Assembly: GCA_023512255.1 (NCBI GenBank)
Contig: JAILZY010000020.1
Span: 1-52,500, forward strand
Origin: a bacterium
GTDB lineage: Bacteria > SZUA-182 > DTGQ01
DNA length: 52,500 nt
Direction of reading: 5' to 3'
A program made the translations under genes and the position numbers. Shown here piece by piece: positions 9,922 through 52,369 of this stretch. The notes under the pieces are model-generated. The model had not been told where the DNA came from. It ran no database searches and worked only from the letters and a program-made list of their open reading frames with translations. Every line of letters begins with the position of its first letter. Within the stretch, counting starts at the first letter, position 1.

Positions 9922-11760
9922 ATGAAAAGCAAGCCTAGGACAAGGTTCACTAGTTTCATTCCGCTGCTTTTGGTGATCGCTGTAAGCCTATGTTCCCTTT
10001 TGGCGGGCTGTGCGGCCAAAACCTATCAGGATAAAGCTAAGTCTAAGATGAGTAGCCAGAATGTCAGCCCTATGCCGCCGGAGGAGGAAAAAGAGCAAGC
10101 TGCCGCGGCCAGCAAGCCGCAAGCTGCTGTTGAAGAGGTTAATGGTCTTATGCTTAGCGATCAGTCCTGCTCAGCAGCCGGAGAGGAGGTAACCTTCACC
10201 ATTTTGATCAATAATGCTCCCAATGCTGCCAGCGCCTTGGGCTTTGAGATTACCTATGATGGGGATATCCTGGAATATAAGGGGATAACTAGAGGAGAGC
10301 TGGTCCAGAGATTTGATATGTTCGATGCTGGCCAAAGTGGTAACAATACCTTGCGGGTTGGCGGGGTAATAGCTCAAGGTGAGATTGCCAAGGGGGCATC
10401 CGGTGCCTTAGCCGAGCTTACCTTTAGCCTAAAGCAGTGCCGCTCAACCTCTCTAACCCTGACCAATCTGGCCGATGACTTTGCAGGCTGGCCGGTGCGC
10501 TCTGGTCGGCTTATCAGTAGCCAAGATAGCAGCGACAGCAGCAGCCAGGATGAGGGGGAAAAAGAGGGCCAAGCTGGGGAAAAAGAGGGCCAAGCTCAGC
10601 CCACCGAAGGCACTGAGCAGCCAGGCGAAGAAGCCGCTGTAAGTGCTGAGCGGCAAAAGGCTAGAGGACCGCTTTCTCAACCTTCGGCTGGTGCAAAAGA
10701 GCCTGCCGCCTCGGATGAAGATCGCAATCTTTCCACCTCCCCTGCGGCTCAAAATGAATATACGGCCAAGACAGCCGAAGACACTGGCCTAGAGAGTGCT
10801 TCAGAAAGCCTTGGGCAGGATGGATCAAGAGAGGATCAGCCAACAGGGCAGGCCGCTTGGCGACTTTCTGCCGCTGGGGTGAATGAGAGTGGGAAAAACA
10901 ATCAGAGTGTCCTTATCTATTCCCAAAAACTCTATTCGTCAAAAGAGACGCAAAGTAGTAACGCCGGGGAGGCTTCTCTCGATTCTGGCGGAGCCAGCCA
11001 GGGTCTGGCTGGGAAAACAGAGCAGGACAGTCAGAGCACTACCCTAGCCCAAAAGACAGCCTCAGCTAGCAATGCCGAAGTGAAAAGCCAGGCTGGATCT
11101 ACTTCATTTTCTAATTCATCTTCATGGCCGAGCCTGCGGACCGATCAGGCTAATGCCTCACCTTCCTTTGCCCAGCAGCAGCAGCAGTCGATGGGCACTT
11201 CTTCTGCTCAGCCAGCCCAAGCTCAGGGCGCTAACCCTTCTGAGGGGAAGGGTGTTTCTTCTTCTGATAATACGGTTTCTAATGATTCGGCGAACTCTTC
11301 TTCCTCTTCCTCTGCTCAGGGGCAGGATGCTGCCACCTCTAGCCAGGCTCAAAATATTGGTGGTTCACTGCTGATAGATAGCCTCTCCTGTACCGGTGAT
11401 GGTGAGGAGGTAACCTTTTCGGTCTTGGCAAGGGATGTAGTCAATAAGGTGGCTACCTTTGGGTTTGAGGTCGGTTTTAATGGGAATGTCCTTAAATATG
11501 AGGGATTCACTAGGGGTGATTTAACTCAAGGGTTTACCATGTTCGATGTCAATCAGCCCGAAGCTGGCAAACTCAGGGTAGCGGGGCTTGACATCGGCAA
11601 CGGCATTGGCCCTGGAGCAAGTGGCCCGATTGTGAACCTGACCTTTAGGGTGAATACTTGCACCTCAACCAGCCTGCATATTAGCAATTTGGCTGATGAT
11701 GTCAGAGGCTGGCAGGTTCAGAGCGGGCAGCTTGAGTCTTCTCCTGGTGCCGAAAATTGA
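9922..11760 (+). CDS. Lipoprotein with two cohesin domains
   Basis: This 612-aa protein has a lipoprotein signal (hydrophobic residues 14-30, lipobox LLAGC). It has two domains of about 120 residues at the ends (about 75-195 and 485-605), joined by a Ser/Gln/Glu/Ala-rich linker of some 290 residues. Both domains read SC...GEEVTF...FGFE(I/V)...LKYEGFTRG...GASG...LTF...C...L.NLADD, the nine-strand cohesin pattern, and each keeps a Cys pair that could form a disulfide. Cohesins bind dockerin modules in cellulosomes but also occur in non-cellulolytic bacteria and archaea with unknown partners. Here the protein would be anchored in a membrane by its lipid and hold two receptors apart. AGGAGG precedes the ATG. 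The 3' end is tandemly duplicated after the stop. Confidence 0.88.
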   Translation: MKSKPRTRFTSFIPLLLVIAVSLCSLLAGCAAKTYQDKAKSKMSSQNVSPMPPEEEKEQAAAASKPQAAVEEVNGLMLSDQSCSAAGEEVTFTILINNAPNAASALGFEITYDGDILEYKGITRGELVQRFDMFDAGQSGNNTLRVGGVIAQGEIAKGASGALAELTFSLKQCRSTSLTLTNLADDFAGWPVRSGRLISSQDSSDSSSQDEGEKEGQAGEKEGQAQPTEGTEQPGEEAAVSAERQKARGPLSQPSAGAKEPAASDEDRNLSTSPAAQNEYTAKTAEDTGLESASESLGQDGSREDQPTGQAAWRLSAAGVNESGKNNQSVLIYSQKLYSSKETQSSNAGEASLDSGGASQGLAGKTEQDSQSTTLAQKTASASNAEVKSQAGSTSFSNSSSWPSLRTDQANASPSFAQQQQQSMGTSSAQPAQAQGANPSEGKGVSSSDNTVSNDSANSSSSSSAQGQDAATSSQAQNIGGSLLIDSLSCTGDGEEVTFSVLARDVVNKVATFGFEVGFNGNVLKYEGFTRGDLTQGFTMFDVNQPEAGKLRVAGLDIGNGIGPGASGPIVNLTFRVNTCTSTSLHISNLADDVRGWQVQSGQLESSPGAEN

Positions 11761-39169: not shown

Positions 39170-41266
39170 CTATGGCAGCGGCACCAGAATCTTTATCTTC
39201 TGATAATTGCTCTTGGCATTGCCAACGATTTCAGACCAGCTGCCGTTAGTCTTGCCTTTTTCCACCCACAGGTATTTGTACTGGCCAGTCCACTCAGGGG
39301 GCAGCCCAGTCAACCTTACCTTGATCATGGTGTTGCTCCAGCTCTTGACATTGCTCAGCACGGTCCCCTTGCCAAGGTCAGGATGCGTTGCCTCTCCCAG
39401 CGAACCAATGCGCACCTCACCGCTTCCCTGGGGATAGCCGAAGTTGATACCATAGATAGTTACCAGGTTATTGTGATCAATTCTGGTAGGTGTAATCCGG
39501 TAAATGTTCGGAGTGTTGATCAGATCGAAATAGAGCGGATCAGAGGAGACCACTTGCAGAATGGTATCGCCGGAGTCAAAAGTCCCATTTCCATTTTTAT
39601 CACCGAAGTAGATGAACTTCATCGACAAAGACCACTTGCCTAGAGCAAGCCCCGTACCCTTAGCCAAGGTAGGCTCACTGCCGCTGTCCTGGACAAAATT
39701 TCGCTCTGGATTAAGTCGATCTTTGAAGAAGTCGTAGAATCTGACCTCAAAGCTCTTCTCGGTCCAGTTGCGGTAGTTCAGAGCTGTGTAGGTACCTTGT
39801 GAGGCTGAAAAATCCACCAGAGAATACACACCGTGATATCCATCATCGAAGATCTTTGTTCGGCTGGTGCCAAAGCTGCCGACATCAGGATCACACAGCG
39901 ATACCTTTATCCAGGTGCCGCATGGTCCCTCTTTCGGATCTATCTTGATGCAGAGAGCATCGCAGCTTGCCTCAAGGGTAAAGACTCTCTGGTTGCTCTC
40001 ACCAGTCGGGGTTACCACTCGGACATTATAGTTTCCAGGAGCAAGGAGCTCCCAGCAGGGAATCTCAAACTCGATCAGGGTATCTGTCCAGGCATGGATA
40101 GGCATATCGATCCACTCGGTGCCGGTATTCAACTGAACCTTGTAGCCTTTTGCCTTCTCCTCACCGAAGTAGGCTCCTCGTAAGGTTACAATAGCGCCGC
40201 AGCAGCCATGACTTGGCTGAATGCCATCCGCGGAATTGTCAATAACTGGAACCTGCGGCGGTGGCGGTGGCGGAAGAAGAGGTACATTATCGCCATGGCA
40301 ACCAAAGCATTGCTCATCAGCCGAAAAGCCAGGCTGAACTTGAGGAGCATATGAGGGGCTATCCCATGTCCGGTAGCGGATCGGATCAAGATCCGCAGGA
40401 TCGCTGTTGCCCGCTACGTGGAAGCCGACCGCCTCCCAGCCATTGGTATTCTTGACATGGGGGCCGATTCGGTGGAGAGTGCCTATGCTGTGGCAGATCT
40501 CGCAATAGCGAATAAGCTGCCGATTGTAAGGATCCCAAGAGGGGCTTTGGGGGTTTTGAGAATGACAGCGGTAGCACTCCGAGGCTACATTGCCCAAAAA
40601 GCCCATGTGATGGGTCTGGTAGTTGCCAACAATCGGCTTTCCATATTCATAGAACCCCATGAATTCGCCCTTATCATTAACATGATTATAGGTTGATGGA
40701 TGTCCAGGGTTTTGTGGATCTTCCGTAATCGAGGCCACCTGTTCCCAATGGCAGTTTTCACAGGAGAATGGGCTAGGAGTAACCACCGAGGGCGGATACA
40801 TGTTAAAATCCCTGATTGGGGTGATTGGCTCGATCAGACTCGGATCATGGCAGGTAACGCAGTTTCCTGAGCCTGACATGTCGGTATTATGGTGCCAACC
40901 GTTGGTATCAAGGTCCCACTGGCTGTGGCAGCCGCCGGTGGTGCAGTCCCGGGTTATGGCCACGCCGCTTGGCAAATCTGGATTGACCTCATGACAGACG
41001 ATGCACTTGCGCTCGTTGACCACGGTGGGTGTGGCATGGTGTCGGTCAGCCAGGCTGCTGCCGTGGCAGGATCGGCAATCACTTTCAGTCAGGTTCTCAT
41101 AGAGGGTATCATAGATGCCGATTTCCTGAGGCACATAGTCCATAAGCGGCCGTGGGCGATTGTAATTTAAATTAATAGCCCACAAAACACCCAAGGTGCC
41201 GAAAATCAAGAGCATGGCTAGGGCAAAACTCAAAAAAAGCTTACTCTTCTTTATGATGCGCTTCAT
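39170..41266 (-). CDS. Octahaem cytochrome c with IPT/TIG domains
   Basis: This 698-aa protein begins with a signal/anchor helix (residues 10-30). It has eight haem sites in residues 64-325: CRSCH, CIVCH, one CX4CH (CTTGGCH), CVTCH, CENCH, CYRCH, CEICH and CFGCH. After a polyproline linker come beta-sandwich domains of IPT/TIG type (GAIVTLRGAYFG..., and PNIYRITPTRIDHNNLVTIYG...WSNTMIKV). A Ca-loop-like FGDKNGNGTFDSGD lies between them. It starts 19 bases after formate dehydrogenase beta and so belongs to the same operon, in the position where a membrane cytochrome b subunit would be expected. I infer that it takes electrons from the beta subunit and passes them outward. AGGAGGGAAG precedes the ATG. 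Confidence 0.93.
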   Translation of the reverse strand: MKRIIKKSKLFLSFALAMLLIFGTLGVLWAINLNYNRPRPLMDYVPQEIGIYDTLYENLTESDCRSCHGSSLADRHHATPTVVNERKCIVCHEVNPDLPSGVAITRDCTTGGCHSQWDLDTNGWHHNTDMSGSGNCVTCHDPSLIEPITPIRDFNMYPPSVVTPSPFSCENCHWEQVASITEDPQNPGHPSTYNHVNDKGEFMGFYEYGKPIVGNYQTHHMGFLGNVASECYRCHSQNPQSPSWDPYNRQLIRYCEICHSIGTLHRIGPHVKNTNGWEAVGFHVAGNSDPADLDPIRYRTWDSPSYAPQVQPGFSADEQCFGCHGDNVPLLPPPPPPQVPVIDNSADGIQPSHGCCGAIVTLRGAYFGEEKAKGYKVQLNTGTEWIDMPIHAWTDTLIEFEIPCWELLAPGNYNVRVVTPTGESNQRVFTLEASCDALCIKIDPKEGPCGTWIKVSLCDPDVGSFGTSRTKIFDDGYHGVYSLVDFSASQGTYTALNYRNWTEKSFEVRFYDFFKDRLNPERNFVQDSGSEPTLAKGTGLALGKWSLSMKFIYFGDKNGNGTFDSGDTILQVVSSDPLYFDLINTPNIYRITPTRIDHNNLVTIYGINFGYPQGSGEVRIGSLGEATHPDLGKGTVLSNVKSWSNTMIKVRLTGLPPEWTGQYKYLWVEKGKTNGSWSEIVGNAKSNYQKIKILVPLP

Positions 41267-42058: not shown

Positions 42059-45000
42059 TTACAGCTTCTCAATCCTACAGAGAAAAGCCTTATATTCAGG
42101 AATTCGGGTATTGGCATCGCCCACATGAGGGGTCAGCCTATTGGCGCTGTGGCCAGTCTTGATGCCTTTATAACCCCAGTGCCACCATATACCGACCTCA
42201 TGTCTCGTCTCACCGAAGATCCTGAAGGTCTTGAACCGGTTAGTTACTAGAGCCCGGGCATTCATATACCCCCTCATGGTCTCAATCCTTACCCAGTCGC
42301 CGTTATTGATCCCTTTGCTCCTGGCTAACTCCATGCTCATTTCTACCACCACATCCGGCATAAGCTCACACAGCCAGGGCAGATGCCGTGTGGCTGCTCC
42401 TGCCTGCCAGTGCTCGCTGACCCGATAGGTAGTGCCGATGATAGGATAATTCCTTGGATCACCAACCTTGTTTGGCTCGTAGATCTTGATGCAGGGATTA
42501 ATTAGTTGACTATGGCCTGCTCCGTAAGGAACGGGATTTTTGCCCCGATGTCCAATCGGCGTATCCAGGGGTTCATAGTGCTCAGGATATGGACCTTCAG
42601 CCATGCCCATACCGTGCAGCCTGGCGTGGCCTTCATTTCTCATAATGAAGGGGCTGCGCTCGCTGTGGCCATCGTATCCGTGCGGGTTAGCCACACCATC
42701 GTGGACATCGCCCACCCAGGCAGATTCATTCCACCAGATGACCGGATGATGCTGATCTGCCGGTGTGTCGCTAACTCCACCCCATCCGCAGGGTAAGAGA
42801 GATGCACCATTGTAGATAATTCTCCGATTGACCGGCCAGGCCCAGGACCACTGAGAATAGATAGGAGCCATACCAGGTGCCTGGGTATTGATCCGCCTCT
42901 TGGAGAGATTAGTGCCAAGACTTGGATACATACCACAATAGATCCAGCAGGCAGATGAGGTCCTTCCATCAGGTTGCAAATCAGCAAACTTAGCCACCGG
43001 TGTCAAATCAGACGCTTTGAGGCCGTTGATTTCAAGATCGAGCAGATCTGCCGAAGGATCATCCGTGCCGTACCAGCCGCTGCCCAGGGTTAGATGGGTC
43101 ATCCCATAGTCATTGGCTCCAGCAGCCTTGCAGGCATCGAAGATTCGGTTGATCATCTTGATCTCATGCTCAGCATCTCCAGGTGGCTCAACTGCCTTGT
43201 ACCTAAACTGGGCCCAGCGGGAGCTGTTAACCACATGCCCATCTTTCTCCATATGAGCGGCCGCGGGCAGCAGGAACACCTCGGTCTGGATAGCGGCCAT
43301 CTGCTCGCTGGTCAGAGGCTCTCCTGTGGTGCTGTAGCGCCAGAAGCTTGCGGTCTCATTCTCCCACAGTTCTGAGATAACCAGCCAGTCAAGCTTTCGC
43401 AAGGCCTCCCGCTCTCTGATTGAGTTTGGCCCACCTACGGCAGGATTGGTTCCAAAGGCAATCAGCCCCTTGATTGTCCCAGCCAGCATATCCTCAAAGA
43501 TCTGAATATGAGAGCAGTGGCCTGGGATCTTGGGTATCCAGTCATAGACGGCCTGAAGTTGTTCTGGTGTAGCTGGATCATTTGAAGTTGGGCTCCCCAG
43601 GGCATTCCACCAGTAGCACTTCATGAGACTGACGATGTACTTTGGAAAATTCTTCCACCAGTTAAGCTCATTCTGATGCGCTGTAAAGGGTGTACATCGC
43701 TTGATATAACTTGCCGGCTGCAAGGGATGCCCAGGCTCGCCAATGAGCGTATCTGTGCGGTCAAAATATGCATCTCCAGGTATAGTGGCATCTGGCTGGG
43801 CAAGGTATCCTGGCAGGATATGGAACAGCAGGCCATGATCTGTTGAGCCCTGAACATTTGATTCACCACGCTGGGCATTGATTCCACCCCCTGACTTTCC
43901 CATATTCCCCAGGAGAATCTGCAGGGTAGAATAGGCCCGAACGTTTTGCACACCCACTGTATGCTGGGTTGTCCCCATAGCATAGAGGATCGTACCTGCC
44001 TTGTCTGATTGTCCGGTAATGGAAAATAGCTCGCAGATATCATCGTAGACCAAAGGGTCTGCTCCGGTGAGGTTTATAACCGTATTTTTATCATAGCGGG
44101 CATAGTGGAGTAGCACATGCTCCCACACGGTCCTCTGATTGGCCACATTCGGCCCAAGATCAGTGGTGTTCAAAAGGCCAACCTCAAGCAGATGCTGCCT
44201 GAATTTGCCAATATAATACTGGCTTGCAGGATCAAGGCTTAAGGTATCCTTGCTGAATCCGCACGAAGTGCCGCAGGAGCAATTTCCCGATGCATCCCAA
44301 AAATCTGTGGCGATATTTACCGCCTTGAAGGCCTTGGGATGGCTGGACACAAAGGTGGCATAATTCCAGGATGATTTATCGTATTTTCCGATCTGGCCAA
44401 GAGTTGGCACAGGCTGGCTGGCATCGGGAATAAAGCCTGAGAATTTCCCATCTCCTGTTTCAGCCGGACCCTTAAAGTTTTCATTGACCAGAAAACCTGC
44501 TGTGCTGTAGTTTAGCACATACGGCTGATCGTACTTTTTGTTTTGAATGACATAGTTGATCATTCCATTGACAAAGGCGATGTCTGTCCCTGAGCGCATC
44601 TTGCAGTACATCTGCCGACCATTCCAGATCGAGGCCTTCGAAGCGCTTCGAGTATAGCGCGGATCAACTACGATCAGCTTGGCTCCATTGCCATCTGGCC
44701 CAGTGTTTCCATATTTATTTTCTAAGGCATAGGTGATGTGCTTGAAGGCCATAGGATGATTTTCTGCCGGATTGGCCCCGATAATCAAAATCACGTCGCT
44801 AGTGCCGATATCAGTCCATGTATTGGTCATGGCCCCTCTGCCGAACGACTCTCCCAGAGCCGATACTGTCGAGGAGTGTCAGAGGCGGGCCTGATGATCA
44901 ATATATACCAGCCCAAGGCCGGTAAAGAATTTGCGCAGCAGGTAGCATTCCTCACTGTCGTGGGCTGCCCCACCTAGACCGGCAATGGCTCTGGTGCGGT

Positions 45001-45508
45001 TTACGGTCATGCCGTTGCTGTCTGTTGTTTCCCAACTACTGGCACGGGTTTGGGCAATTCTTTGGCCTATCAGGGGAAGAGCCTCCTCCCAGCTCATGAT
45101 CGTCCATTTGTCATCTCCAGGGGCACGATACAAGACCCTAGCCAGCCGCTTATCCGCAGGCCAGGAGTCAATCCTTGCCCCGATGGGATAGTAGGTGTCC
45201 AATTCTTCTTGGCTAAGGATCTGGGTAGAAATCTGCCGCGTGGCTACCCCCTTGCTGCAGAGAGCACCCTCATTGACCGGGTGAGTCGGATCTCCCTCAA
45301 CATTGATCACTGTACCACCACTTGCAGTTACAATGATCCCACAGCCGCAGCCGCAGAAGCAGCAGATGGAGGTGGTCTCGGTCCCCTCTTTCAATCCTAT
45401 ATCTGCCAGCGCCTGGGGAATCTTTACCCAGTTGAGCAGAGAGCTAGAAAGCAGGAAAGCCGTTGCTCCTCCAGAAAACTTTAAGAAACTTCTCCTGGTT
45501 ACATCCAT
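42059..45508 (-). CDS. fdnG: Formate dehydrogenase alpha subunit, selenocysteine-containing, Tat-exported
   Basis: The catalytic subunit (1149 aa) oxidises formate to CO2 at a bis-MGD Mo or W centre. It has a Tat signal RRSFLKFSGG and a [4Fe-4S] motif CCFCGCGCG with a later CSKG. The active-site codon is TGA at 44879-44881 in DHQARL-U-H, aligned with the Sec of E. coli FdnG (DHQAR-x-U-H). The frame continues unchanged after it (HSSTVSALGESFGRGAMTN), so the TGA is read as Sec210 and is not a stop. Later motifs include DVILIIGANPAENHP and GTNPAVGGPNS. Expression needs SelA/B/C/D, not seen in this window. AAGGAG lies nine bases before the ATG. Gene order: fdhE, alpha, beta, octahaem cytochrome. 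Confidence 0.96.
44846..44881 (-). promoter_or_regulatory. UGA selenocysteine codon and candidate bacterial SECIS hairpin
   Basis: Directly after the UGA codon, CGAC (44871-44868, read on the minus strand) can pair with GTCG (44849-44846), enclosing GGCTCTGG as a possible apical loop. Distance and size fit a bacterial SECIS element, which recruits SelB. The hairpin is weak by eye and its exact fold is inferred. Confidence 0.65.
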
Positions 45509-46689: not shown

Positions 46690-47418
46690 ATTTTTCCCTT
46701 CTTTCTATAAATTTAAGGCCTTGTCTCTCTTTTTTTGAGTGTTCAAAATCAATACCACCCTTCCTGGCCTGACAACCTCCTGGCATCTTTATGGATCATG
46801 TTGATTTTCTATCCTCTGGGAATTTGAGATGAACTTAAAAAAATCATATAATTTACGTTTTTATACTTATATTTTATGCATATTTTTGAGTTTATTCTCC
46901 CGGTTTGATAGAATCCAATAAAGTCAAATAGATATAACTGCGACTTACCTATCTTTAGGCTAGTCTAATTTTCTGCTGCTGGGGGATAATCAGAAAATTC
47001 TATAAGATGATTTAATTATCTTGAGCCGACTTGACGAAAAGCTGCCTCTTGAGAGACTTATCCTGCTTGGCGACATAACGATAGCATCCCTGTTTATTAC
47101 TTTCCTTAATAAGCATAATTTATACCTTCCTGTCTTCCTGACCCACATTTCTGGCCTTGCACTTTTTGTGATTAGCTTGAAATATCAATGAAATATCCAT
47201 TCAAAAATATTTGACCGCTGGTTGAATATATTCTCTTTAACTTTGAGCGCAAGAAACTTGAGTGCAAGAAACCGTGTTGGTTAATAAGTCTATCAAGTGG
47301 CTGCCCAAGGGGTTTTTTAAGGCTTGTTAGGGGAAAATTGTAGATGGGATAAATTATGGGGCTAAGTTCAGGAGAGATAATCTATAGGAAATGAGGAAGG
47401 GTGAATTAACAAATTGTG
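46690..47418. other. AT-rich upstream region of the formate dehydrogenase block
   Basis: No open frame with a ribosome site or family resemblance is present in this stretch. The promoter of fdhE and the fdh operon should lie in it, but I see no clear sigma-54 (GG-N10-GC) or sigma-70 pair on the minus strand. Small duplications occur (GCAAGAAAC twice near 47250-47272). Confidence 0.5.
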
Positions 47419-47530
47419 AGTTTATCTTTACAATTTATTAAAATTTGTAAGATATACTATACAATTGTGAAGTATACTATACAATATAGAAGCATACCTT
47501 ACACTACGGTAAGTAATCTTTACACACTCT
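47419..47530. promoter_or_regulatory. Array of 20-21 bp direct repeats, possible operator array
   Basis: Four consecutive units start AAG and share a TAC-TATACAAT-like core: 47449-47469, 47470-47489, 47490-47510, 47511-47530. A fifth related unit at 47419-47439 is set so that it forms an inverted repeat with the first (TATCTTTACAAATT-like against AATTTGTAAGATA). A spacing of two DNA helical turns is typical of regulator binding arrays. It lies in the 1.2-kb gap between the 15-haem cytochrome and fdhE. Confidence 0.6.
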
Positions 47531-47683
47531 AACCAGGGTTTTAAATAAAAACAAAATCATCTCTATGTTGAGATTTTTCCAGATAAGTAAAAGATATTGT
47601 TATTCATTACATTTTGTTGCAGGTTGCAACTATATCCACATTCACTGACCGGTGATAAATGGGAAAAAGTCGAATGTTTTCCA

Positions 47684-47763
47684 CCTCCCCCCTCCCGATA
47701 AGAGGGGTGATGGGGGATGTTTTTTACTCACCCCTCATCTGTAGTCTCCCATCAAGGGGGAGG
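47684..47763. repeat. Imperfect inverted repeat near the 15-haem cytochrome 3' end
   Basis: CCTCCCCCCTC at 47684 and GGGGGAGG ending at 47763 form outer arms. A perfect 9-bp inner stem is GAGGGGTGA (47702-47710) with TCACCCCTC (47728-47736). It might act as a transcription end for the cytochrome gene, but has no T tract. From 47765 to 47880 short direct repeats of (A)CGAG(A)GG-CCTCCACC type continue. Confidence 0.55.
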
Positions 47764-47907
47764 AAAGTATGAGAAGTCCTCCACACTATGAGGGTCCTCC
47801 TTTTGCGGCCTCGCCGACGAGGCATAACATACGAGGGCCCTCCACCCTACGAGAGGTCCTCCACCAAGGATGGGAAACATCCGGGAAAAAGTTAAATAGA
47901 ATAAGGC

Positions 47908-50900
47908 TTACTGCCCTACCTCTAACGATACAAGCGCCTGATCCTGCTTTCCGGTATCATCCTGGGTGGTTATCAGCAGTTGGTAGTCTCCAGAAGATAC
48001 CCCTGACTGAATAGTCAGCATAAAGCTGTAAATATGGTCATTAGCCAGCAAATCCCCATGAGTTCCATCATCATACATCATCTGGCATGCATTGTCTGGC
48101 AGGATAGGGCTAAGATCAATGGTAGTTGAAGTCAGGTTATTATCCGTATCAAAAACATAGGCGGTGATCAGAGTGCTTTGGCCAACTGCTATTGACTGCG
48201 GCTGGGCCTTAGCTCCAGAGATTGCCGGAGCGGATGAAACCTTGGGCACAATGCTTGGGTGAGCATAGAAGATCTGATCATGGCAGCCGACACAGCTATG
48301 ATTATAAATAATATTGTTAGGCTTGGCCATATGGCCGCCGACGCTCTCGCTGCGGCTTGCACTTTCACTGCGCCTTGATTTGCGATAGTAGTGGAAATTG
48401 GCGCCATAGTGGGTTGAAATGCTGCTCTTTGACCATGTTCCCTGAAATTCGGCCTGAAGGTTATCAATAATAATCACTGATCCGTCAGCCACAGACTGGA
48501 ATTTCACTGCATCAGCAATAACATAGCTGAGAGCGTCTCGGGGTGGAGTTTTGTTGCTGCTGACCGTATCCTGGATATCTTCTGAGGTCAGCTCGACATA
48601 GCCAGAGGTTCCCTGCTCGAAGGAGAAGGTCCCAAGCTCGTTCCAGACAATTGGGCTCTTGCCAGCATTTTCACGCTGATTCTTATAGATAACGGTTTCG
48701 CCGTCAGCATGGACAATCTTAAACTTAGCATGAGATGAGTTTAAACTAGGATCAATGCCCTTGATATCAGACCAGGTAGCAAAGACCTTATATTGCCCCG
48801 GCGATGGCAAATCAGGAATCCACCTGCAAGAGCCTGCCTCATCTCGAACCAGCCAGCCAAAATCAAAGGAAGGCACAAAACTTTGCGTTCCTGGTGGGCT
48901 GATCAACTCACCATGCCGAATCATGGCCGGCGAGGGTGAGCCGTGGACATTGTGGCAGGTTGTGCAGGTTGCGGCTGCATCACCGATGCCGTCAAAATCA
49001 GAATCGCAATAATTTCTGACGTTCAGCGAAAGATGCCAATAGTGTTCGTTTCGCCAGGTGCCGAAATTTGTACCAAAAGGTGGATTCCGATGCCACTGTC
49101 CCTGTCCCTGGCTATGCCCAAGCAATTCATATTTATTATGACAGCTTAGGCAGAGGGCAAAATCCTGCCACGATTTGGTCGGATCAGGAATAGCAGGTGG
49201 TGTGTTTCTAATTCTCAAAGCAGGCCCACCATCGATCATCCTTAGGCGATATCCTGCTTGGTAGTTATTCAGGGAGGCCTGATAGGTTCGTGGCTCATGG
49301 TCTATATGCTTCGTGGAAGGATCATGGCAGTCAGTGCACAGGACCAGATTATGTTTGCCATGTCCGGTCTTATAATAGCCATAAGGAGTGGCTGCACGCT
49401 CATTGCCGATCACTGCCGGAGCATCTATTCCTGAGCCATCGGCCCGGCTTTCGGCCGGAATCTCATCGTGGCATCCAGCGCACCACTTTTCTTTACCTGC
49501 TCTCAGCCTATTATTTTGATAGACACCGCTTGCCCAGTTATTTTTAGCCCCAATGACTGGATTATCTACCCCGTCATATGTTCCCTCAGGGCTGTGGCAA
49601 GGATCGCAGACTCTGGTTTCAGCCAATGGTTTATTATCGGCAAAGAGCATAACATGGGGATTCTCCTCACTGCCTGCATGGCAATCCCAGCATCCAAGGG
49701 ATGGAGATGGGCCCCGCTCAGCCCCAAGGTGGGTGTGGTGGCTTGGATGGGACTGAACATACTGACTGTGGCAATCCCGGCAGGTGTCGACCGGAGTTCG
49801 ATGGTAGCTGACCTGGTCATTATGGCACATATTGCACATATTATTTTTAGTTACCGAACCAGGCCCAGGGCCATAGAACTGAGTACACCCACCGCTACTT
49901 TGCCTGACATCGAAAAGATTATAGTCCATTTTCCCAGCCGCGTTTAGATAGCGAAAGTTAAACATAGGGGCCTTCTCAGCGCTGCTGCCCGCTGGACTAG
50001 CCAGCTCCCCATGCCTGGTCATGGCTGGTGAGGGCGAGCCGTGAACATTATGACAGGCCGGACAGCTCTGCGGTGAGTCAGCCACTCCATCCCAGTCAGA
50101 ATCCCAATCCTTGGTGTTTCCGCAGTAGCCTCTTCCCTGCAGGTGGCGAAGATGCTCATTTTTAACCTTGCCGTTTTCATCGACATGATCCTCATTGCGA
50201 AAATTCGTAGCCAGAGGATCCTGATGAAAGCTGCCCGAGCCATAGGCATCGCCAAGAAGCTTATATTTATCATGGCAGGAAAAACATAGGGCAAAGTCAT
50301 TGTCGGTCATAGGACTTTCTCCACTATTGCAGCCTACCCGCGGAATCTCCAGGGGCAGAACCATCTGCCCGTCCACCTCTACGCTCTTTAGGCGATAGCC
50401 GCTTTGGTAGTTATTCTGGCTGGCGCAGTAGGTCCTGGCCTGGCCATCAATGTGGACACTGGCCAGATCATGACACCGATCGCAGCCGATCTTGTGGCCG
50501 CTAATGTAATATCCATACTGAATATCCTTTTTGAACTCAAACTCACGTAGGTAATTGACTGGCAGTGGACCTCCACTTACCTTGACCAGTTTGAGATAGC
50601 GAACCGAAATGAATTTATCCAATCTAACCTCATTCCATCCTGCCTCAGATCCTATTTTCCAGGTAGGAGAAGCATATGTCTTAGTTCCAAGGAGGAGCTT
50701 GATAGTGCAGGATGAAGGATCGTCTCCGCCAAAGAGGTTCCAGTGGGTTTCAGTAGTTGAACCTACAAAAAGCCTGATATGGGAAATATCAGTAGACTGA
50801 CCAAGATCAAAGATAATGAATGACCCACTTGTGCCGACTGTCCCTGTATCAAGGTTATGATCCAGCAGATTCACAGCGCCCTGAATATTAGAGGAAACAA

Positions 50901-51369
50901 CGAGAGCAGGGCTCTGCCAGCCTCCAGACAGGGATTTTCCGGCAATGTTTGGCGCGGGCGTGTTATTAATTATGCAACTTCCGTCATCATGGCAGCCAAC
51001 ACACCACTTCTCTTTGCCCGGCTTTAAATGATCCCCCACATATACCCCTCCACTCTTCCAGTTGGCTTTGGCTCCGATGAGCGGATCATTCACTCCGTCA
51101 AATTGCCCCTGTGGGCTGTGGCATTGGTCACATAAGGTGGTTGTGGCCAGAGGCTTACCATCCTTGAAATACCCAGGGTAGGGATTGTCGTGGCAATAAT
51201 CACAGGAAAGATGAGGTCCCTTAGGGCTATTTTGATGTGTTTGGGCTGGGCCAGACTCCTGGCCCCCTGCTTTTTCCCCCCCTGTAATCAATAAGAAACA
51301 AAGCATGCCGAGAACCGCTATTGTTCCTAATCCTTGATAACACCACTTCTTGAACCTTTGCTCACCCAT
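47908..51369 (-). CDS. Large modular cytochrome c with 15 haem sites, discoidin-like and golvesin-like domains
   Basis: This 1153-aa protein has a signal peptide (hydrophobic residues 14-30). I count fifteen CxxCH sites: CDYCH, CDQCH, CVGCH, CDRCH, CFSCH, CPACH, CNMCH, CRDCH, CWDCH, CDPCH, CAGCH, CTDCH, CLSCH, CTTCH and CVGCH. Two modules are homologous (CD-CHSP-G-DGV-P-IGAK-NW and GKEKWC-GCHD in both). The first holds an inserted discoidin/F5-8C-like domain at about residues 150-285 (VNLLDHNLDTG...IIFDLGQSTDISHIRLF...VRYLKLVKVSG). After haem 14 comes a golvesin-like region (WIPDLPSPGQYKVFATWSD, IADAVKF, IIIDNLQAEFQGTW). The C-terminus is a beta-sandwich (MMYDDGTHGDLLANDHIYSF). It is probably extracellular or outer-membrane attached and binds a solid or glycan surface. 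AAGGAG precedes the ATG. Confidence 0.92.
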   Translation of the reverse strand: MGEQRFKKWCYQGLGTIAVLGMLCFLLITGGEKAGGQESGPAQTHQNSPKGPHLSCDYCHDNPYPGYFKDGKPLATTTLCDQCHSPQGQFDGVNDPLIGAKANWKSGGVYVGDHLKPGKEKWCVGCHDDGSCIINNTPAPNIAGKSLSGGWQSPALVVSSNIQGAVNLLDHNLDTGTVGTSGSFIIFDLGQSTDISHIRLFVGSTTETHWNLFGGDDPSSCTIKLLLGTKTYASPTWKIGSEAGWNEVRLDKFISVRYLKLVKVSGGPLPVNYLREFEFKKDIQYGYYISGHKIGCDRCHDLASVHIDGQARTYCASQNNYQSGYRLKSVEVDGQMVLPLEIPRVGCNSGESPMTDNDFALCFSCHDKYKLLGDAYGSGSFHQDPLATNFRNEDHVDENGKVKNEHLRHLQGRGYCGNTKDWDSDWDGVADSPQSCPACHNVHGSPSPAMTRHGELASPAGSSAEKAPMFNFRYLNAAGKMDYNLFDVRQSSGGCTQFYGPGPGSVTKNNMCNMCHNDQVSYHRTPVDTCRDCHSQYVQSHPSHHTHLGAERGPSPSLGCWDCHAGSEENPHVMLFADNKPLAETRVCDPCHSPEGTYDGVDNPVIGAKNNWASGVYQNNRLRAGKEKWCAGCHDEIPAESRADGSGIDAPAVIGNERAATPYGYYKTGHGKHNLVLCTDCHDPSTKHIDHEPRTYQASLNNYQAGYRLRMIDGGPALRIRNTPPAIPDPTKSWQDFALCLSCHNKYELLGHSQGQGQWHRNPPFGTNFGTWRNEHYWHLSLNVRNYCDSDFDGIGDAAATCTTCHNVHGSPSPAMIRHGELISPPGTQSFVPSFDFGWLVRDEAGSCRWIPDLPSPGQYKVFATWSDIKGIDPSLNSSHAKFKIVHADGETVIYKNQRENAGKSPIVWNELGTFSFEQGTSGYVELTSEDIQDTVSSNKTPPRDALSYVIADAVKFQSVADGSVIIIDNLQAEFQGTWSKSSISTHYGANFHYYRKSRRSESASRSESVGGHMAKPNNIIYNHSCVGCHDQIFYAHPSIVPKVSSAPAISGAKAQPQSIAVGQSTLITAYVFDTDNNLTSTTIDLSPILPDNACQMMYDDGTHGDLLANDHIYSFMLTIQSGVSSGDYQLLITTQDDTGKQDQALVSLEVGQ

Positions 51370-51460: not shown

Positions 51461-52369
51461 TCATTCCTCTCGATTGGCTTCATCGCCGCTGACCGGCAGA
51501 TAATTATTCCCCGCTTGATAGAAATTGCCAGCAGCATTGCTGCCAGCCCTATTTCTGATGGCATAGCTATAGTCAGGGTTCAAATACAGTCCATAGCCAC
51601 CATTATTCCTCATTCTATTCCCCTCGATCCGGCATTTGTCGATCGTCCATATACCATGAGCACTGTTTGATTCAGCGATGCATCCGCTGACAGTAGATGA
51701 GCTAACACGCAGACCGCTGGAGCCGTTTGAACGAGCCTTTGAGTTTATGATCGTTGAGGAGGTGGCCAAAAAGCCGTCTGATCCGTTGAACTCAGCCTGA
51801 CAATTGATGATGAGAGATGATTCAGCTTCAAGACCATAGGAGCTATTAGAGCAGACCCTGACATTTTTAATCTGATGATTTCTGCCGGATAGTTTGATGC
51901 CGGAAAAAAAACCACGGACTGTTCCATTTATGATTTCGACATTCTCTCCTTGAGATACTAGGATACCAATGCCGCTTCCCGCGCTTTGAGGGCCGCTGAT
52001 AGTATGGCCATTCAGATCGAGGGTAACATCGCTTGCCCTAATCTCAATGGCATTCGCCTTGAGAAGATAGGAGGAGGTCCCGGCATCAGCATTGAGGTTG
52101 ATATTGTCAGTCAAGATATAGTGTCCTGGCTGATCGATAACGATGGGGAAGGTGGTTGATGGGCTAGGGCTAATTTCAGCCTGTCCCTCAGCTACGGATA
52201 GAAAAGTAGGATATGTACCGCTGCCTGCGGCAGGCGAAGATTGGCTAGTTTCACCTTTTCCTCCCTGCTCATCGGCAGAAAAAAGCCCACAAGCAGGAAG
52301 GGCCAAAGCAACAAGAGCCACCAGCCATACGGTCAGCAAGACCGATTGAATGTTCCTTTTGGTTTTCAT
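51461..52369 (-). CDS. Lipoprotein with a right-handed parallel beta-helix
   Basis: This 302-aa protein has a signal peptide ending ALPACG, probably a lipobox with Cys27. It then has the Gly/Asn/Ser-rich repeats of the beta-helix (pectate-lyase-like, NosD) fold: GHYILTDNINLNAD, EIRASDVTLDLNGHTISG, VEIINGTVRGFFSGIKLSG, and later INSKARSNGSSGLRVSSST. No catalytic residues of polysaccharide lyases are evident. It is likely surface-exposed and may bind glycans or act structurally. GAGGAG lies 11 bases before the ATG. It is 91 bp upstream of the 15-haem cytochrome on the same strand and may share its transcript. Confidence 0.88.
   Translation of the reverse strand: MKTKRNIQSVLLTVWLVALVALALPACGLFSADEQGGKGETSQSSPAAGSGTYPTFLSVAEGQAEISPSPSTTFPIVIDQPGHYILTDNINLNADAGTSSYLLKANAIEIRASDVTLDLNGHTISGPQSAGSGIGILVSQGENVEIINGTVRGFFSGIKLSGRNHQIKNVRVCSNSSYGLEAESSLIINCQAEFNGSDGFLATSSTIINSKARSNGSSGLRVSSSTVSGCIAESNSAHGIWTIDKCRIEGNRMRNNGGYGLYLNPDYSYAIRNRAGSNAAGNFYQAGNNYLPVSGDEANREE

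Follow-up and report, generated by a model that had tools for sequence, protein, structure and literature searches.

How an extracellular cytochrome keeps its place, whether between cells, within a matrix or at a surface, is not settled in the study of direct interspecies electron transfer. The gene described here lies in a window (the whole stretch of DNA analysed, 52,500 nucleotides) from an uncultured bacterium and encodes a 15-haem cytochrome with additional domains on the same chain. We have asked what these domains are, where they sit with respect to the haems, and what they might be for.

Table 1 Features of the 15-haem cytochrome gene and its upstream neighbour (positions in the window)
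Feature	Position	Strand	Basis
15-haem cytochrome gene	47908..51369	-	1153 aa and stop, 15 CXXCH; reading of the open reading frame
N-terminal hydrophobic segment, residues 1-36	51262..51369	-	read from sequence
Module 1, haems 1-7, residues 45-520	49810..51237	-	CXXCH register across 33 relatives; six extra His that are conserved
Discoidin/CBM32-type domain, haem 3/4 loop of module 1, residues 143-281	50527..50943	-	homologues, PDB profile, AlphaFold2/Foldseek
Linker haem 8, CRDCH, residues 530-534	49768..49782	-	motif position; outside both module registers
Module 2, haems 9-15, residues 547-1035	48265..49731	-	homology to module 1; haem 15 aligned with haem 7 via relatives
Golvesin domain, haem 14/15 loop, residues about 828-960 (Pfam match 846-958)	48490..48888	-	PF25275
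Predicted C-terminal beta-sandwich with choice-of-anchor X motif, residues 1045-1153	47911..48237	-	NF041940
Upstream lipoprotein, parallel-beta-helix-like repeats	51461..52369	-	lipobox LPAC; weak NosD match

Haem sites and modules

A single unbroken reading frame on the minus strand, from 51369 to 47908, spans the whole stretch, and the plus strand of 47908-51369 is stop-rich throughout. The CXXCH motifs start at residues 56, 80, 123, 296, 362, 436, 512, 530, 560, 588, 630, 678, 740, 802 and 1026; 1000 shuffles of the protein gave on average 0.07 such motifs and at most 2. Full-length homologues with 74-75% identity occur in the same genus. The N-terminal segment is a probable Sec signal peptide, and reading of the N-terminal sequence revealed no canonical lipobox. 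A phmmer search of the PDB with the whole protein gave no match, and no relatives were found on viral contigs.

Residues 36-545 share homology with residues 540-850 (E 7e-45 and 1e-26). An earlier note on this DNA had described a 15-haem protein containing two homologous multihaem modules, and the motif count and this comparison bear out both points. The register of CXXCH motifs is kept across 33 relatives. The module core consists of six CXXCH and six extra histidines (45, 292, 306, 406, 409 and 443), the latter conserved in practically all relatives covering those positions. The several CXXCH motifs are thus accompanied by candidate distal ligands, as is looked for in a multihaem c-type cytochrome. 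Since each core has six motifs and six conserved extra histidines, the haems are predicted to be bis-histidine ligated and the chain to be unbroken.

In module 1 a seventh haem comes after the six-haem core. Direct comparison of haem 15 with haem 7 is weak (E 5e-5), and the haem that follows the golvesin domain in three relatives (L037, L041 and L055) matches haem 7 with E-values of 4e-13, 5e-12 and 2e-8, respectively. Aligned through these relatives, haem 15 corresponds to haem 7, giving a layout of 7 + 1 + 7 haems. An AlphaFold2 model of module 1, built from 33 sequences and without haems, has moderate confidence in the haem core (mean pLDDT 65); a model of the entire protein from one sequence (pLDDT 31) was set aside. 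A profile of the core found only marginal matches in the PDB, with octahaem nitrite reductase at E 0.0035.

Domains inserted between the haems

The motifs of haems 3 and 4 start 173 residues apart. Most relatives have 35-82 residues there, and the occurrence of the same core with this shorter spacing, in place of 170-181 residues, in many bacterial relatives indicates that the additional segments are insertions and not linkers. As a single sequence the window copy of the insert has no match to PF00754 (F5_F8_type_C) in Pfam, but this family is matched by 19 of 24 homologous copies (E up to 0.1; best 4.7e-9), and in L036 the domain that occupies this slot scores 46.7 bits against a cut-off of 28.2. 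Searched against the PDB, a profile of the homologous copies retrieves CBM32 modules, with that of the alginate lyase AlyQ at E 1e-11. In the module 1 model the insert has pLDDT mostly 69-90 and the beta-sandwich fold expected of the discoidin family; Foldseek places CBM32 modules at the top of its matches (5xnr, 7d29, 7d2a; E 1e-6), with TM-scores of 0.73-0.74 when normalised by the target, an isolated CBM32 module. The fold is the same as that of AlyQ CBM32 (7d29, 7d2a), but the two share only 18% identity and AlyQ's module sits in an alginate lyase. The single-sequence Pfam search also gave Ntox22 below its cut-off (E 0.04-0.05), which we rejected as a chance match because the homologous copies match F5_F8_type_C.

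The second insert matches PF25275 (Golvesin_C) well above threshold (E 1.9e-15; 57.6 bits, cut-off 31.6), although it has diverged further than the other golvesin copy in the genome. A profile of 15 golvesin copies finds one strong chain only in the PDB, residues 927-1039 of 6f2p, a Paenibacillus xanthan lyase (E 3.9e-34). Its C-terminal domain is of the same family, but the cytochrome's copy is set between two haem sites and, unlike that in 6f2p, has no polysaccharide-active partner domain. Bacterial lectins are reported to have a domain of like annotation, for which a xanthan lyase and Dictyostelium golvesin were the two characterised members (PMC9166713). As haem 15 corresponds to haem 7, the golvesin domain is itself a loop insertion. 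The region after haem 15 appears from its sequence to be a beta-sandwich; it matches NCBIfam choice_anch_X (NF041940) just above the cut-off (26 bits versus 25) and is conserved in five relatives (including L037, L041, L055 and L073).

The domain identifications of the earlier note were therefore right, since the segments match families and are not ordinary linkers: the discoidin-like domain between haems 3 and 4 and the C-terminal beta-sandwich are as described, and the golvesin domain, described as following haem 14, is more exactly a loop insertion between haems 14 and 15. The overall anatomy of the protein is well supported.

Relatives of the module

Most relatives have the core without any insert. 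A discoidin domain fills the haem 3/4 slot in L036, L037, L039, L040, L082 and others, and a golvesin domain does so in L041 and in module 2 of L037 and L082; elsewhere the slot is empty. Golvesin occupies the haem 6/7 slot in the 15-haem cytochrome, L037, L041 and L055. In the genome of the 15-haem cytochrome, neither the discoidin profile nor Golvesin_C has a match outside multihaem cytochromes. The C-terminal parts of L074, L075 and L081 show a further arrangement, with golvesin nested within discoidin.

A maximum-likelihood tree of 51 cores was calculated without the inserts. In it the ten cores that bear discoidin group in a single clade (support 96/89; a single change in 96% of bootstrap trees) and the three that bear golvesin in another (99/92). 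The discoidin clade covers the small phylum of the source bacterium, bacteria labelled Deltaproteobacteria and two alkane-oxidising archaea. The core has at least a partial match in all nine genomes sampled from the phylum, with strong matches only in the order of the source bacterium. The wide spread of the core in bacteria suggests that transfer was from bacteria to archaea.

Two archaeal genes, L036:9183-11788 and L037:9183-11806, are 93.2% identical over 2627 bp of DNA, then switch abruptly to unrelated C-termini, and their flanks are unrelated. The pair is apparently mosaic and the product of recent transfer between archaeal lineages. Mis-binning is an unlikely source of the near-identical copies, because mcrBAG is present on the Syntrophoarchaeum contig, which otherwise has little in common with the GoM-Arc1 genome. 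On that contig (Ca. Syntrophoarchaeum, L036:282-14263) the discoidin-bearing gene, of 16 haems, is found about 5 kb downstream from the mcrB-mcrA-mcrG operon, and 6-haem and 5-haem genes separate the two. A non-coding element of ~94 bp at L036:4155-4248, which has no Rfam match, is present in about ten copies in the L037 genome.

Genomic setting

The lipoprotein gene lies 91 bp upstream of the cytochrome gene on the same strand. The sister species (G001) retains this pair in duplicate: each of its two tandem copies of the cytochrome gene has a lipoprotein gene of the same beta-helix type ahead of it (the pair occurs twice in L073). Downstream, 46690-47907 is 1.2 kb without a gene and with short degenerate repeats; at this place the sister genome carries a two-haem fragment of 401 aa. 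At 42059-45508 there is a formate dehydrogenase alpha subunit gene interrupted once, by an in-frame TGA where selenocysteine is expected (DHQARLUHSS), which reads through when TGA is taken as U; the gene for FdhE of formate dehydrogenase is also near. Beside the formate dehydrogenase genes, 39170-41266 encodes a multihaem cytochrome with a TIG domain, possibly the electron-accepting subunit of the enzyme.

Farther off in the window a cohesin-domain protein is encoded at 9922-11760, and with the genome's dockerin domains, of which there are at least 19, it makes up an adhesion-type repertoire. Cohesin and dockerin parts have been counted among the adhesion factors of syntrophic partners (PMC10553843). 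Identity of the organism as a sulfate reducer was considered and rejected, no dsrA being found in a genome estimated to be 97% complete. The MtrB/PioB porin (TIGR03509, PF11854) had no match in the genome in a search whose controls matched weakly or not at all. The same genome has a cluster of 26-, 21- and 8-haem cytochromes (L077:1102-11074), the 26-haem protein bearing the same core module; similar clusters occur in related genomes, and in a genome of the same order a 49-haem cytochrome of 2611 residues adjoins a 26-haem one (L060:11545-19377).

Comparison with known cytochromes

Multihaem cytochromes with accessory surface domains are already known, and the 15-haem protein is a variant of that kind. 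In outer-surface decahaem cytochromes of the MtrC/OmcA type, which are extracellular, beta domains alternate with multihaem domains. Two relatives have distant, sub-threshold matches to Mtrc-MtrF_II-IV; the OmcA/MtrC decahaem family (TIGR03507) is not among the NCBIfam matches of the 15-haem cytochrome, and its beta domains are instead CBM32-type and golvesin folds inside loops. ANME MHC-A, B and C, from methane-oxidising archaea, are likewise large cytochromes joined to surface domains, in their case S-layer, peptidase M6-like and pectin-lyase-like (PMC9012536). A Pfam scan found none of these three domains in the 15-haem cytochrome, S-layer being sought at E up to 10, and it has no S-layer domain with linker haem, the criterion for ANME MHC-A/B. 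OetF of syntrophic sulfate reducers combines a cytochrome with fibronectin domains, for which matrix contact or partner recognition has been proposed (PMC10553843); both proteins have adhesion-type domains, but by description the binding folds differ. The planctomycete-specific PSCyt cytochromes carry CBM or F5_F8_type_C domains (PMC5615132) and so, like the 15-haem protein, join a c-type cytochrome and a discoidin-type domain in one chain. However, the haems here come in heptahaem modules, and a Pfam scan found no PSCyt1-3 domains.

In the literature library searched, no paper combined 'golvesin' and 'multiheme cytochrome', or 'discoidin' and 'multiheme', in agreement with the earlier note's statement that it knew of no characterised cytochrome with this domain order. 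The order itself is not unique: it recurs in the two tandem copies of the sister species, and archaea have arrangements much like it.

Proposed function and alternatives

We propose, with a probability of about 0.6, that the protein is secreted and serves as an electron conduit outside the cell, fastened to polysaccharide or to glycosylated surfaces. The two tandem heptahaem modules and the linker haem would form the conduit, passing electrons along the tethered protein. Whole CBM32-type and golvesin folds, set into the haem 3/4 loop of module 1 and the haem 6/7 loop of module 2, would lie outside the cell and hold the conduit on a polysaccharide or glycosylated surface protein, be it the cell's own matrix or a neighbouring cell's coat. 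A beta-sandwich of extracellular type would close the chain, the adjacent lipoprotein gene may supply anchoring, and exchange of the inserted domains could retarget the same conduit. We infer carbohydrate or surface binding from folds typical of sugar-binding modules, those of AlyQ CBM32 and the xanthan lyase C-terminal domain. The mcrBAG setting of the archaeal copy, alkane oxidation with extracellular electron disposal, was counted in favour of the conduit, as were the cohesin and dockerin domains of the genome and the confinement of its discoidin-profile and Golvesin_C matches to multihaem cytochromes. On the other side stand the MtrB/PioB porin search, which gave no match but had weak controls, the moderate confidence of the haem core model and the divergence of the golvesin copy.

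The inserts might instead be structural spacers or protein-protein interfaces that space the haem groups or link copies of the protein into a filament, with no sugar bound. In MtrC-type cytochromes beta-barrel domains separate the pentahaem domains, and the sub-threshold matches to MtrC/MtrF domains II-IV in two relatives fit with this; discoidin folds also serve as protein interfaces, and APC10 and XRCC1 are among the Foldseek matches. However, the top matches by both fold and profile are carbohydrate-binding modules of polysaccharide-active enzymes, most relatives manage with a core lacking the insert, and different folds of sugar-binding type recur in the same slots. We consider a purely structural role unlikely, though worth keeping in mind.

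Anchoring to a mineral surface for metal respiration, a positioning that the earlier note had also suggested, seems improbable, as neither fold points to mineral binding and the sequence gives no support. The failure to find dsrA does make an extracellular or metal acceptor plausible, and another extracellular cytochrome, PgcA, binds Fe(III) oxide (PMC5732950); PgcA is, however, thought to use PTX repeats, and none were noticed in the 15-haem cytochrome. We give very little weight to the idea that the protein is a polysaccharide oxidoreductase, in which the sugar-binding domains bring the substrate and its electrons enter the haem chain. The PSCyt proteins have a similar combination of domains, and a role in carbohydrate metabolism has been suggested for them (PMC5615132), but Pfam and NCBIfam scans found no catalytic domain anywhere in the 15-haem protein, and haems with ligation of six-coordinate type are the sole predicted cofactors.

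The heptahaem module may be a portable chassis with fixed loop slots and interchangeable sugar-binding domains, exchanged between bacteria and alkane-oxidising archaea with recombination at its C-terminus, by which consortium partners would retarget the same wire to different coats or matrices. We offer this wider picture tentatively and with the odds against it. The candidate holding parts belong to the haem-bearing chain, lie in particular loops and differ among relatives while the core stays constant, and their role is thereby open to test. The close archaeal copies, one of them near mcrBAG, connect the heptahaem module to anaerobic alkane oxidation. Together, the architecture and the archaeal relatives suggest a way to fasten a biological wire to a coated surface.
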